A stretch of 64,000 bases of DNA from a virus. The translations under genes and the position numbers were made by a program. The stretch is from positions 1 through 64,000 of the IMG/VR virus record IMGVR_UViG_3300010354_000003; one strand, 5' to 3'. A model generated the notes under the pieces. That model had not been told where the DNA came from. It did not search any database and was given only the letters and a program-made list of their open reading frames with translations. Of this stretch, positions 36,480-42,200 are shown in pieces (position 1 is the stretch's first letter; each line of letters starts with the position of its first letter).

Positions 36480-37595
36480 ATGAATAAACACACATACCAT
36501 GTGTTGGGTCTTCCACACACGGTTTCTTCCACAAAGTTCAACGCCTGCGCCTACACACAAAAAGTGGTCAAATTTGGAAAAATGATGACCGAGCGCGGTC
36601 ATACAGTAATACACTACGGACATGAAGACTCTGATCTACAATGCAGCGAACACGTCACCGTACTTACCAATGACGACTTCAAGATATCTTATGGATCACA
36701 TGATTGGCGCAAAACCTTTTTTAAATTTGATACCAACGACCATGCGTATCGTAAGTTTTACGACAACGCTATCCGTGAAATTTCCAAACGGAAGCGGAGT
36801 AACGAGTTTATCTTGCCCTTCTGGGGTTCTGGCGTACGTCCCATCTGTGACGCACACCAAGACCTAATTTGCGTTGAGCCAGGCATTGGATATGCTGGTG
36901 GGCATTGGGCGCGTTGGAAAGTATGGGAAAGCTACGCAATCTATCACGCTTATTGCGGATTGAAGAATGTTGGTCAGTGCAACCAAGACTGGTATGATGT
37001 CATTATCCCAAACTATTTCGACAAGAATGATTTTGAGTTCAATGACAAAAAGGGCGACTATTTCCTATACCTTGGGAGGGTTTATGATGGGAAGGGAGTG
37101 AATGTTGCAATACAAGCAACCGAAAAAGCTGGGGTTAAGCTTGTAATTGCTGGCCAAAAAGAAGACGGCTACAATCTGCCAGACCACGTGGAATATATCG
37201 GGTATGCCGATATGGAGAAACGTAAGAAGTTGATGTCAAATGCCATTGCATCTTTTTTGCCAAGCATGTATGTCGAGCCATTCGGCGGTGTTCAAATCGA
37301 AAACCTATTGTCTGGAACTCCAACCATAACCACGGATTGGGGTAGTTTTGCCGAAAACAATCTGCACGGAATTACGGGATATCGATGCCGGACTATGGGG
37401 GATTTCGTGGATGCCATTAAAAATATCGACAAAATCAAACCAGCGGACTGCCGTAAATTTGGCGAAAACTTTACTCTGGAAAAAGTTGCCCCAATGTATG
37501 AGAAGTTCTTTGAAGACGTTCTTGATGTTTATAACGGCAAGGGGTGGTATGCAGATGGAAATGGGCTAAATGCAATGATTAGGGATTACCCATGA
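36480..37595 (+). CDS. GT4 family glycosyltransferase (GT-B fold)
   Basis: 371 aa. The N-terminal Rossmann half begins YHVLGLPHT. The C-terminal half has FLYLGRVYDGKGVNVAIQA (strand and Gly-rich loop), KLVIAGQKE, and ASFLPSMYVEPFGGVQIENLLSGTPTITTDW, which is the E-x7-E-type donor site of GT4 enzymes. This is a retaining glycosyltransferase that uses a nucleotide sugar. Overlaps the lipoprotein gene by four bases. Its own promoter and opposite strand set it apart from the virion operon. Confidence 0.85.
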   Translation: MNKHTYHVLGLPHTVSSTKFNACAYTQKVVKFGKMMTERGHTVIHYGHEDSDLQCSEHVTVLTNDDFKISYGSHDWRKTFFKFDTNDHAYRKFYDNAIREISKRKRSNEFILPFWGSGVRPICDAHQDLICVEPGIGYAGGHWARWKVWESYAIYHAYCGLKNVGQCNQDWYDVIIPNYFDKNDFEFNDKKGDYFLYLGRVYDGKGVNVAIQATEKAGVKLVIAGQKEDGYNLPDHVEYIGYADMEKRKKLMSNAIASFLPSMYVEPFGGVQIENLLSGTPTITTDWGSFAENNLHGITGYRCRTMGDFVDAIKNIDKIKPADCRKFGENFTLEKVAPMYEKFFEDVLDVYNGKGWYADGNGLNAMIRDYP

Positions 37596-37945
37596 AATCA
37601 ATTGTTTTGCTGCTCGCGTTGTTGTTGGTTTCGTGTTCCGAAAACCCGCCGGCCGATATTCCTGCATGGGTTGGAAAATACAAAAATGCATGCCTTCCAG
37701 AAGCCATTGCAATGCAGTCTGGACTTCGCGGTTCTGGGATTGAAAGCAAGGTGCTGATCGTTCAAACAGACAAATGGAACCATGCGGTTTGCGTTTATGT
37801 GTTTAATGGAAAGCTGTTTGTTTGGGACAGCTATTGGAAAAGCAATCAAGTTCGTGCATGGTTTGACAATCCAAGCATGGTTGCAAGGGAGTGGCTGGAG
37901 TTGGTTTCAGATGCTGTGGTTTTCAAGAATGGATATTATTTGTAA
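37592..37945 (+). CDS. Phage lipoprotein with papain-like catalytic pattern
   Basis: 117 aa. Lys-start signal peptide, hydrophobic core and lipobox LVSC with the lipidated Cys at 15. The mature part contains ACLPEA (Cys34), WNHAVCVYV (His64) and LFVWDSYW (Asp79), the order and spacing of transglutaminase/NlpC-type cysteine hydrolases. It would be anchored in the host envelope. Candidate roles are superinfection exclusion or envelope processing. It is coupled to the GT4 gene. Confidence 0.6.
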   Translation: MKSIVLLLALLLVSCSENPPADIPAWVGKYKNACLPEAIAMQSGLRGSGIESKVLIVQTDKWNHAVCVYVFNGKLFVWDSYWKSNQVRAWFDNPSMVAREWLELVSDAVVFKNGYYL

Positions 37946-37952
37946 TTTTGTG

Positions 37953-37980
37953 TTGCGCTGTTTTTAAAATCGTGTAGATT
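37953..37980 (+). promoter_or_regulatory. Candidate promoter of the structured RNA region
   Basis: TTGCGC (37953-37958), 16-base spacer, TAGATT (37975-37980). Transcription would begin near 37987. The lipoprotein gene ends just upstream. Confidence 0.35.
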
Positions 37981-37986
37981 GGTTGC

Positions 37987-38545
37987 ATCCTAATGAGGAA
38001 CGCAAGACTCATACAGGTCTGAGAATTTCCCTAAAAGAGAAAACCCCTGACCCGCTTGGTATCTTGCGTTACTAAGCGGGTCTTCTCTTTTGGTATGAAG
38101 CCGAGAGGCAGTTCCCTAAAAGAACCCGCAAGTTAGGATGAGCGTAGCACGGCGGGGTCCAATCCCCCGACTGCGGAGAATAACCTGGAAAGGACTCCCG
38201 TGTGAAGGAGAGGGGTCGGGAGGGTTAAAAGACTACCGACTTAAAGCGACTCTGGCAGCTATGCTGGGGACTGCGGATCGAACTGGCTCTCCCCGAAAGG
38301 GGTAAACTAAGCAAGCCTAGGCTAAGGACGACCTCTGGGCGAGCGATCCATCAAATGAACAAGCGGCTCCAAACGGAAACGTAAAAGCATTTGGCAGTTC
38401 TCTAATTGGTAGGGAACTGCTATGCCCAAGCCCACCGCCGGAAACGCCTCAAGCATTGCAACAGGCGGGGCCATCCTAACCGCAAGCGCAGCACTGCGAG
38501 CGAGCAGTTAACAAGCTTGTTACGGATTGCAGAGCGGAAAGTCTG
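37987..38545 (+). ncRNA. Candidate large structured non-coding RNA
   Basis: About 560 bases without a credible gene but packed with paired elements. A 9+9 bp hairpin spans 38033-38091, and a T-loop-like hairpin (CGGGG-TCCAATC-CCCCG) lies at 38153-38169. A two-part stem pairs AACC with GGTT and CTCCCG with CGGGAG (38182-38226). There is a GAAA tetraloop hairpin (38291-38302), long-range GGATCG/CGATCC (38275-38280 with 38344-38349), GCAGTTC/GAACTGC (38394-38420) and AACAAGCTTGTT (38510-38521). Size, phage setting and a tRNA gene 2.5 kb away recall the ornate GOLLD and ROOL RNAs of phages. I cannot confirm membership. The 5' hairpin may instead be a terminator. Confidence 0.45.
38033..38091 (+). 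terminator. Terminator-like hairpin downstream of the lipoprotein gene
   Basis: GACCCGCTT (38049-38057) pairs perfectly with AAGCGGGTC (38074-38082), followed directly by TTCTCTTTT. An upstream AAAAGAGAA (38033-38041) can extend the stem by pairing with that T-rich tail. It could end the GT4/lipoprotein mRNA, or be the first domain of the structured RNA. The C residues in the U-tract make termination uncertain. Confidence 0.45.
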
Positions 38546-38552
38546 GATTGGG

Positions 38553-38569
38553 TAGGCAAAATTTGCCTA
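38553..38569. promoter_or_regulatory. 17-bp palindrome upstream of dCMP deaminase
   Basis: TAGGCAAA-A-TTTGCCTA is a perfect inverted repeat 71 bases before the deaminase ATG. A likely operator or the last hairpin of the RNA region. Confidence 0.4.
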
Positions 38570-38640
38570 GCGCAATACAGTAAACATTTTTACAAAAAAC
38601 TGTGCATCTTGGAAAACCGTTGATACAATTTACACCACAC

Positions 38641-39036
38641 ATGCAATACGAAGAATACGCCTTGGAGATAGCGAAGACTGTATCGAAGAAGAGCAAAGAC
38701 CCTTGGAGAAAAGTTGGTGCTTGTGTATTAAGGCACGACAATTCAATTGCTTCTGTTGGATACAATGGATTTACTGCGGGGATGCCAGAAGACTGGTCTG
38801 ACAGGGACAAACGAAGATTGTTTGTTATCCATGCCGAGCAGAATGCGTTGCGGTATGTAAGTCCAAACGAATGCGGACTGATTGCGGTAACGACCCTCCC
38901 CTGCAACGACTGCCTTAAAGCGATAGCATCCTACGGGATCAAGCGCGTGGTTTACGAGGATTCCTACGAGTTTGATTCCTCGACGGAGAGTATTGCAAAA
39001 AAGTTCGGAATAGAACTCCGCAAGATTACTTGCTGA
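38641..39036 (+). CDS. Deoxycytidylate (dCMP) deaminase
   Basis: 131 aa from ATG 38641. A GTG at 38602 would add 13 residues, but a TACAAT -10 box at 38624-38629 favours the ATG, with a near-leaderless message. The zinc site is HAEQNAL plus LPCNDCLKAI, with the catalytic Glu in HAE. It converts dCMP to dUMP, feeding dTTP synthesis. No thymidylate synthase or dCMP hydroxymethylase is in the window. Its 3' end overlaps the stop of the opposite-strand gene at 39026 by 11 bases. Confidence 0.9.
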   Translation: MQYEEYALEIAKTVSKKSKDPWRKVGACVLRHDNSIASVGYNGFTAGMPEDWSDRDKRRLFVIHAEQNALRYVSPNECGLIAVTTLPCNDCLKAIASYGIKRVVYEDSYEFDSSTESIAKKFGIELRKITC

Positions 39037-40936: not shown

Positions 40937-40961
40937 CCGTCTCGGGGCATATTTACACCCC

Positions 40962-41035
40962 GCCCGCGTAGCTCAGTCGGATAGAGCAGCAGCCTTCTAA
41001 GCTGCGAGTCGTTGGTTCGATCCCAACCGAGGGCG
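40962..41035 (+). tRNA. tRNA-Arg (anticodon TCT)
   Basis: Acceptor GCCCGCG/CGAGGGC (one G-A mismatch at the fifth pair), D-arm GCTCAGTCGGATAGAGC, anticodon stem GCAGC/GCTGC around CTTCTAA (anticodon TCT at 40996-40998), T-arm GTTGG-TTCGATC-CCAAC, discriminator G. The next bases are CCC rather than CCA, so the tail must be added. Reads AGA/AGG codons, a common phage supplement. Confidence 0.9.
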
Positions 41036-41113
41036 CCCCAATGTTTAGATTATGCATAGAAATCCAAGCCACACTTGAACTACTCAACACAATCCAAACA
41101 GCAGCATGACGGA

Positions 41114-41221
41114 ATGACGGAGATGACGGATATTCCCAGAAAGCCCCTAAAACGCACGGAAGGCAGCAGACCGCACCCAAGTATCGGAAAACAGAAGAAA
41201 ACACGCTACAGACCCGAATAA
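41114..41221 (+). CDS. Possible 35-residue basic ORF
   Basis: Starts within an ATGACGGA repeat and encodes a Lys/Arg-rich peptide (PRKPLKRTEGSRPHPS). Shortly downstream of the tRNA; a small basic gene is possible, but there is no ribosome site or relative to support it. Confidence 0.25.
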   Translation: MTEMTDIPRKPLKRTEGSRPHPSIGKQKKTRYRPE

Positions 41222-42200
41222 ACGAAAAGGAGAGGGGGATAGACAAGGGGGAGAGGATAGATATTCGGCAAGAGGGATACCAAACAAAGAAACGAGAGGT
41301 AGGCAAATTTTTCCTAGTCAAGCAAATATGCGGATATCAGCAACATAAAGAGCAGAAAGGGCAAGAGGAGGGAATTTTTAATTTTGATTTTTAATTTCAG
41401 AATTTAAATTTTGGTTTTCCCTTAGGTCGTTTTTTGCCCCACCAGCCGCCAGCCAAGTCCCCCCACGGGTACCACGGGTGTGGTGGGGTGGGCTGTCTCG
41501 GTCCCGCTGCGGCCAGCGCCCCGCCCTCCCCTCCGGCGCCGCTGTGGGGTAGGGTTGCCCATCCGCCCGCCCGCCCGCTCGCTTTGGGTAGGGTGTCACA
41601 CGGCCAGCCCATCGCACCTTGCGCCATCCCGTTGCCCGCCTTTCGATTGCAGCGCCCGCTTTGCCATAACTTCTGATAAGTACCCTAATGCCTAATTGAA
41701 CGATGCGCGAGGATGCCCGTGTTTTGCTTTGTTTCGATTGGCAAGGGTAGGACGGCGGGGGAAAATAGAACGATTCTACGTGGCGCGTAGCGTAAGCGCG
41801 GGGCAAATCGTTTCTCGGGAATTCCACACGGGGGAATGCCTGCGAGAATTGCACGGGGGAAAGTGTCGAAAAACACGGGAAAACACTTGGCATGATAGCT
41901 GCTGCGATTTCGCGGAAACGATTGCGATTGCGTGGGTTGCGAGAGGATTGGCAAGATTTGCGCGAAAAGGGGAAAATGCTGCCGGTTTTTAGTAGGAAAG
42001 AATTGCCCACGGGGAAAAGTCTTCCGCCCTTCCTTCCCTTGATTTCCAGCCGTTTACGCTTGGCATGATTCATGCTGTGCATTTTCCATGCGTAAGTGCT
42101 TGATATCGCGCTTCCCGTTCCCCTTCGCAGCACTTGGCACGGGCCTTGCTATGTATCTGGCAGCTTGGCAATCACGCCATGGCGCAACCAACACACTAAA
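41222..42200. other. Gene-free region, candidate replication origin
   Basis: No credible gene. 41222-41371 is almost purely purine on the plus strand. 41372-41413 is three tandem 14-base AT-rich units (each beginning with G, core ATTTTTAATTT in the first two). From 41436 the same strand becomes C-rich for about 200 bases. CACGGGGGAA repeats at 41827 and 41852, with shorter variants at 41874 and 42008. An AT-rich unwinding-like element beside strand-biased arms and short repeats is what a replication origin looks like. A 251-codon minus ORF here (41378-42133) is rejected as compositional. Confidence 0.4.

Follow-up and report, generated by a model that had tools for sequence, protein, structure and literature searches.

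The closest described counterparts of the RNA reported here are ROOL and GOLLD, large ornate noncoding RNAs encoded in phages or prophages. ROOL has no obligate protein partner, contains pseudoknots and a covarying loop contact, and is not essential (PMC12286853). GOLLD is built from two separately evolving domains and carries a GAAA loop as well as a covarying loop-loop contact that joins its subunits, and both families possess a variable linker (PMC12286853). The loop contacts of the two RNAs were detected by covariation and first read as tertiary, but proved to be inter-subunit bridges of RNA-only cages (PMC12286853). The same cryo-EM study did not settle if large natural RNAs commonly form cages. 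Both families often lie near tRNA islands, and the constant part of GOLLD is its 3' part. OLE RNA, likewise an ornate RNA of about 600 nt with RNA-RNA contacts, is encoded on the chromosomes of Gram-positive extremophiles, and proteins that partner with it are known. RNA-only particles of phages are thus represented by two unrelated examples, GOLLD and ROOL, neither with a known function. A third independent class, if true, would make such particles a recurring phage strategy.

Here we describe a locus that, as a reading of the sequence alone had suggested it might, is best taken to encode a third class among the large ornate RNAs of phages, one that is modular and occurs in some uncultured viruses of bacteria. 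The window, by which we mean the whole stretch of DNA that was analysed, comprises 64,000 nt of the virus record IMGVR_UViG_3300010354_000003 (positions 1 to 64,000; the full record is 68,676 bp), and its segment from 37986 to about 38551 is almost certainly a real, conserved structured RNA. The explanation that best accounts for the whole of the evidence, to which we give a probability of roughly 60%, is a new two-module, free-standing class of structured phage RNA that probably self-assembles via a pair of complementary loops. We know of no other large ornate phage RNA with either of two of its traits, the swapping of its core and an obligatory loop pair that changes freely. Neither trait had been anticipated in the sequence-only reading.

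In kind, the RNA resembles GOLLD and ROOL; by the tests run here it is unrelated to either, though by analogy it may work as they do. Covariance models of GOLLD (RF02032) and ROOL (RF03087), which the sequence-only reading had proposed to run with Infernal, gave no match at the gathering threshold over the 64 kb, none at E<=10 on 37900-38660, and none in the homologues or in a copy of the second core type described below. Unlike ROOL (659 nt), the present RNA measures 450-565 nt, has different helices, swaps its core, lacks the link to tRNA islands, and comes from uncultured phages, with no plasmid or cultured-phage match. It is about half to two thirds the length of GOLLD (>800 nt) and inverts its domain logic, as it is the 5' part that stays constant here while the rest is exchanged wholesale. 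The failed model tests, the different length and domain logic and the missing tRNA link together lead us to exclude the RNA from both families. OLE RNA is likewise set apart, with no Rfam match here.

The Locus, Its Promoter and Its Homologues

The element lies in gene-free DNA between a small lipoprotein-like gene, which ends at 37945, and a dCMP deaminase gene, which starts at about 38641. Its two principal features are as follows.

37986-38551, + strand: type-1 RNA gene, about 565 nt in the window, with homologues and no Rfam family
37953-37980, + strand: promoter TTGCGC-16-TAGATT, start site expected at about 37986, position and spacing kept in other copies

The sequence-only reading had marked some 560 gene-free bases at 37987-38545. 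The lack of a gene is borne out by the longest open reading frame within the element (55 aa) and by indels between copies whose lengths are not multiples of three, and the start as marked falls within 1-2 bases of the expected transcript start. The 55-aa frame itself (38138-38305) was rejected as a gene and served purely as a source of DNA patterns. All type-1 copies have the part from 37986 to about 38440 in common, and in most of the other copies the conserved portion ends at the equivalent of about 38440. Similarity to the nearest copy (L037) stops at about 38550, and a 3' end as drawn, at about 38551, is plausible. On the + strand the element folds with a minimum free energy of -223.8 kcal/mol against -196.3 +/- 5.6 for 20 shuffles (z -4.9). 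Since the - strand also scores z -3.8, folding energy alone is indecisive and comparison between copies is needed.

A promoter-like sequence had also been noticed upstream, and it holds up across the family, though the window itself matches the consensus at only 7/12 positions. With the geometry fixed, at least 8/12 positions match in 35 of 41 copies, as against 4% of shuffles, and other copies present TTGACA-16-TATTGT and similar sequences at equal position and spacing. These sequences place the promoter in the sigma-70 type. Because its distance to the first helix, P1, is fixed in 35/41 copies, the first bases transcribed would already belong to P1.

A first BLAST search with the RNA covered 15 phages that have related terminases, 88-94% identical in 14 cases, and gave no match. 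At G004, where the full locus is readable, this null result is a real absence. Relatives were located by degenerate DNA patterns derived from the translated 55-aa frame, a scan that returned three contigs with 76-82% DNA identity over 340-580 bases, the nearest copy being 82% identical to the window over the element. Patterns taken from invariant parts brought the total to 21 further contigs with type 1, which are 63-78% identical to the window over the core (n=21); further patterns gave mostly the known set, so the type-1 collection appears near exhausted. Other pattern hits (L048, L049, L052, L063-L068, L069-L078, L079, L081, L104, L111 and L115) were inspected or blasted and judged to be chance, their counts being about what chance predicts for patterns of those lengths. 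An exact 17-mer scan of 84,980 bacterial and archaeal GTDB genomes gave ten hits against a chance estimate of about 30, none of which extends. All copies found are IMG/VR viral contigs, and the RNA occurs in no cultured phage or plasmid of the collections searched. We found no published description in a search that covered few subscription papers or bioRxiv preprints, and an earlier description elsewhere is possible.

Searched with Rfam 15 at the gathering threshold, the whole window yields a tRNA-Arg only, and 37900-38660 has no credible match even at E=10. The near-matches TtnuHACA24, RsaJ and sRNA162 were dismissed as chance, as they fall below the gathering score and rest on alternative folds. 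These results bear on the idea that the element is a ribozyme or the remnant of a mobile RNA such as an intron, to which its size, its strongly conserved core with pseudoknots, and its cassette-like presence and absence would be suited. Models of group I and II introns, HEARO and ribozymes give no match at E<=10, no gene is interrupted, the element has its own promoter, and no endonuclease gene lies alongside; we consider this origin very improbable.

Secondary Structure and Covariation

The alignment comprises 22 type-1 copies with pairwise identities of 60-99.6%. The features on which the structural model rests are listed below.

37986-37992, + strand: P1 5' strand, CAUCCUA, pairs with UAGGAUG at 38134-38140 and closes the 5' domain
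38134-38140, + strand: P1 3' strand, UAGGAUG, pairs with the P1 5' strand
37993-38012, + strand: P2 hairpin, AUGAG[GAACGCAAGA]CUCAU, whose loop is one half of the loop pair
37999-38007, + strand: P2 loop, AACGCAAGA, complementary to the P3 loop UCUUGCGUU at 38062-38070
38049-38082, + strand: P3 hairpin, GACCCGCUUGGUA[UCUUGCGU]UACUAAGCGGGUC, a terminator-like stem whose loop is the other half of the loop pair
38083-38124, + strand: P4, UCUUUU.../...AAAAGA with an inner GCC/GGC hairpin, covarying
38141-38143, + strand: long-range helix, AGC with GCU at 38286-38288, one compensated change
38153-38169, + strand: P6 T-loop hairpin, CGGGG[UCCAAUC]CCCCG, its 7-nt loop read directly from the sequences
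38184-38193, + strand: P7 GNRA-capped hairpin, CCU[GGAA]AGG, with GAAA or GUAA in other copies
38209-38213, + strand: long-range helix, AGAGG with CCUCU at 38332-38336, crossing P11 as a pseudoknot
38215-38240, + strand: P9, GUCGG.../...CCGAC, 100% paired, one pair changed on both sides
38250-38269, + strand: P10 variable hairpin, GNRA-capped in most copies
38275-38280, + strand: P11, GGAUCG with CGAUCC at 38344-38349, 9 double changes on the tree, 100% paired
38291-38302, + strand: P13 tetraloop hairpin, CCCC[GAAA]GGGG, 100% paired
38315-38318, + strand: P14, GCCU with GGGC at 38337-38340, 6 double changes, 100% paired
38393-38421, + strand: P16 hairpin, GGCAGUUCUC.../...GGGAACUGCU, 99.4% paired, near the 3' end of the common core
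38435-38468, + strand: 3'-extension hairpin, CCGCC.../...GGCGG, present only in the window, L083 and L092

More than eight stems had been proposed from the single sequence, and the comparison raises these to 13 covarying helices. Over the 22 copies, 96.2% of their 1594 pair cells are paired, compared with 89.2% in shuffled alignments and 32-45% with slid partners; pairs changed on both sides number 27 against 15.5 shuffled, and cells with a double change 114 against 28.4. A scan of all possible helices, with double changes counted on the tree, ranked P11 first (9), followed by P14 (6), P1 (5) and three helices with 4 each. Under a tree-keeping null, which is a home-made, R-scape-like procedure and not R-scape itself, four pairs, all Watson-Crick, were unequalled in 12 simulations; the top one (columns 119-145) lies in P4. 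The sequence-only reading had named a lack of covariation among homologues, together with the absence of a transcript, as grounds for giving up a structured RNA; homologues were found, and they covary strongly.

Individual helices bear out the same picture. P1 is 96.8% paired, with three pairs changed on both sides. The P6 stem is 100% paired with two such pairs, and its T-loop, recognised earlier as a T-loop-like hairpin, recurs with UUCUAUC or UUCAAUC in other copies (for example CAGGG[UUCUAUC]CCCUG). The GAAA tetraloop of P13 was also correctly seen, and its stem is compensated elsewhere as CACC/GGUG, CGCC/GGCG and CGUC/GACG. Three hairpins with GNRA caps can be read directly from the sequences, and P10, as read by eye, diverges yet remains foldable (CCAAGUC[GAAA]GAUUUGG; ACUCCGGUA[GCAA]UACUGGAGU). 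Among the long-range helices, AGC/GCU changes from C-G to U-A in L087/L088/L096, and the AGAGG/CCUCU pseudoknot is invariant except in L101/L102, where AGUGG/CCACU keeps the pairing. Two candidate pairings from RNAalifold, GCGUAGCA/UGCUAUGC and CUGC/GCAG, were dropped in favor of P16, because the changed copies L091 and L097-L099 support the P16 hairpin, with a bulge. The 3'-extension hairpin changes from CCGCC/GGCGG to CCACC/GGUGG in L083 and L092, a weak case with three sequences only.

The Loop Pair

The loops of P2 and P3 can form a contact of up to 9 bp, the last base of which competes with the P3 stem. In the type-1 alignment, all seven aligned pairs of this contact have changed on both sides, and when both core types are taken together, 24/24 distinct cases are complementary over 5-9 Watson-Crick bases. 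Loop partners swapped between copies typically match over 1-4 bases, and 0/2000 permutations reach the observed complementarity. The most telling comparison is that of L101 with L102, which are identical in 435 columns outside the loops and differ, with compensation, in 12/20 loop columns. The promoter spacer also differs between these two copies. Given a spacer about as variable as the loops, we considered and dropped a strong claim that selection diversifies the loops; in our reading, their sequences may change freely so long as the two remain complementary.

The RNA thereby has the covarying loop-loop contact that characterizes ROOL and GOLLD. Hairpin loops of 7-9 nt that are fully or mostly complementary are also familiar from ColE1 RNAI/RNAII and the HIV DIS, where they join two RNAs or two palindromic copies; here, in contrast, both loops are non-palindromic and lie on one RNA. 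The hairpins P2 and P3 are separated by a linker of about 40-60 nt, which is long enough for the loops to clamp within one molecule.

Exchange of the Core

Evidence that the RNA is divisible into modules comes foremost from G034 (IMGVR_UViG_3300042938_001476), a single assembly that carries the RNA at both contig ends with two different cores. One copy (L103, 6440-6966, - strand) is of type 2 and the other (L100, 131-610, - strand) of type 1. The two have an identical loop code, and G034 is also the only genome in which the P3 hairpin occurs twice and not once. Identity is 97-98% over the 165 common bases, which take in the promoter and the 5' domain, and over the 3' flank, but the core between them is unrelated. 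The likely explanation is that a single phage population holds both versions as alleles, and that these broke the assembly. Since both cores share one loop code, G034 argues against the loops serving to separate core types.

Two scans, one with a pattern from the 5' domain and one with a pattern from the new core, found the type-2 core (about 400 nt) in 23 contigs, preceded by the shared promoter and 5' domain in every contig that extends far enough to show them. A type-2 copy has no Rfam match, folds with z -4.6, and the core has compensated helices of its own (11, 9, 8 and 8 double changes). A 5'-domain covariance model trained on 18 type-1 copies outside the window's clade, and thus held out from it, recovered the window at E 3e-11, type-2 loci down to 7e-33 and a third phage lineage, C, weakly (about 1e-3); it found nothing in relatives without the RNA. 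At these loci the model also matched the opposite strand, less strongly, owing to the symmetry of the P3 hairpin. Comparison of the copies accordingly resolves two modules: a 5' domain of about 155 nt (P1-P4), and a conserved core of about 300 nt, with a T-loop, GNRA loops, long-range and pseudoknot helices, that is replaceable by an unrelated one of about 400 nt.

Variants of the 5' domain were also observed. In lineage C (L119, L120, L126, L129), a new 12-bp closing helix surrounds P2 and P3 (CTCGTATCCAAT/ATTGGATACGAG in L120), and the loop pair is still complementary despite it (CTGACGGA/TCCGTCAG). L123, L127 and L095 have a divergent P4 region (GAATCCAA..., GAGTCCAATAGGGCAGC) beyond the reach of the 5'-domain pattern, and further core types may lie behind these variants.

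Phage Lineages, Neighbors and Presence or Absence

Members of the family were found in phages of three lineages (A, B and C). The terminases of these lineages are 22-28% identical to one another and the phages have few proteins in common, while the RNA core is 76-80% DNA-identical over its best stretch. In lineage A, to which the window belongs, the RNA lies upstream of a dCMP deaminase or glycosyltransferase gene. In lineage B it stands alone, both neighboring genes being on the opposite strand and the downstream one converging on it. Lineage C has type 2 only and, as read by eye, a hairpin and T-run terminator after the RNA.

This arrangement matters for the notion of a cis-acting leader or attenuator, in which P3 would act as an intrinsic terminator about 100 nt downstream of the transcript start, and read-through into the gene beyond would be switched by the loop pair together with the core. 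P3 is indeed a strong GC-rich hairpin followed by a U run in most copies, and in lineage A the RNA is directly upstream of the same-strand dCMP deaminase or glycosyltransferase gene, with the start codon about 20 nt away in L087/L088/L096. However, lineage B lacks the consistently upstream and co-directional placement that a leader calls for, the window, L083, L092 and L039 have no U run, and the most conserved part is the sequence after P3, over 300 nt. P1, moreover, reaches past P3 and covaries, which argues that the long form is the functional one. A leader is therefore rather improbable, and the RNA very probably acts in trans. P3 as the terminator of an upstream gene was likewise rejected, because the upstream genes mostly point away.

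Presence of the RNA varies among close relatives. G004 and G026 are 92-95% identical in their flanks; G026 has the RNA and G004 has other genes at the site. The latter (L021:7955-9417) encode proteins of 150 aa and 232 aa, the larger of which has HNH-like CxxC...HH motifs. Given that at least three diverged lineages carry the RNA and close relatives do without it, genome comparison marks it as an exchangeable, dispensable cassette. The nearby tRNA remarked on in the sequence-only reading is real, a tRNA-Arg at about 40961-40962, 2.4 kb from the RNA; the family link it was thought to signal is not, since only 6/21 sequence pieces checked around other copies contain tRNAs.

Dispensability also weighs on a role in the packaging motor. 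In phi29, the pRNA is required alongside the packaging ATPase and has loops that pair with each other intermolecularly and change together, and a comparable RNA could be ringed on the portal via loop-loop contacts; the present element shares co-changing complementary loops with pRNA and is found in phages, near structural genes. Yet phages with terminases 91-93% identical lack the element at the locus (G004, 91%) or have no match, two unrelated cores serve similar phages, and the RNA, three times the length of pRNA, is not tied to the terminase. We regard such a motor RNA as highly unlikely.

Proposed Mode of Action

We propose that the RNA would be transcribed from its own promoter and act in trans. 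Its copies would stick together through the P2-P3 loop pair to give an RNA-only oligomer or cage, of which the core would supply the body and the target. The formation of homo-oligomers stands at about even odds, by analogy with the inter-subunit loop contacts of ROOL and GOLLD; counting against a cage is the length of 450-565 nt, shorter than the cage-forming ROOL and GOLLD. A likely use would be to scaffold a host component, or to act as a sponge for one, in the course of infection, and any particular target is doubtful.

The same loops could instead close within a monomer that binds a protein or host factor (as a decoy, sponge or anti-defence RNA), with the core as its specificity domain. 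The linker length permits such an intramolecular contact, T-loop and GNRA loops suit docking, and the swapping of cores at a constant 5' domain, together with presence and absence in close relatives, is typical of arms-race genes. The loop-loop contacts of the nearest analogues, however, are intermolecular (PMC12286853), and no protein partner gene constantly adjoins the RNA; on balance a monomer is possible but unlikely. A possible but unlikely extension of the self-assembly proposal is one in which the freely changing loop pair of the constant 5' assembly domain would be an identity code. Only RNAs of one code would then co-assemble, and phages would exchange the core bodies as if these were alleles, perhaps while competing against one another or against host defence.

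The loop pair of the putatively self-assembling RNA offers a direct test of assembly, in that it can be broken, restored or mixed between codes. The natural core swap and the pairs of phages with and without the RNA allow the contributions of scaffold and body to be told apart.

Other Features of the Window

Several further observations were made around the element. Directly 3' of it, at 38551-38570, is an imperfect 20-bp palindrome, GGTAGGCAAAATTTGCCTAG, that recurs with 90% identity at 41298-41317, 2.7 kb downstream, and is a possible terminator or recombination site. The glycosyltransferase at 36480-37595 is about 70% identical to a protein of Synechococcus phage S-CAM7 (phrog_3408), even though the terminase of the window is without a close relative in culture; the position of the glycosyltransferase gene relative to the RNA shifts, from upstream in the window to downstream in L038. 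Finally, some 1.1 kb between the tRNA-Arg and a GP88-like gene (41040-42158) contains no convincing gene, is GC-rich and includes a 22-bp direct repeat, and could hold another noncoding element.
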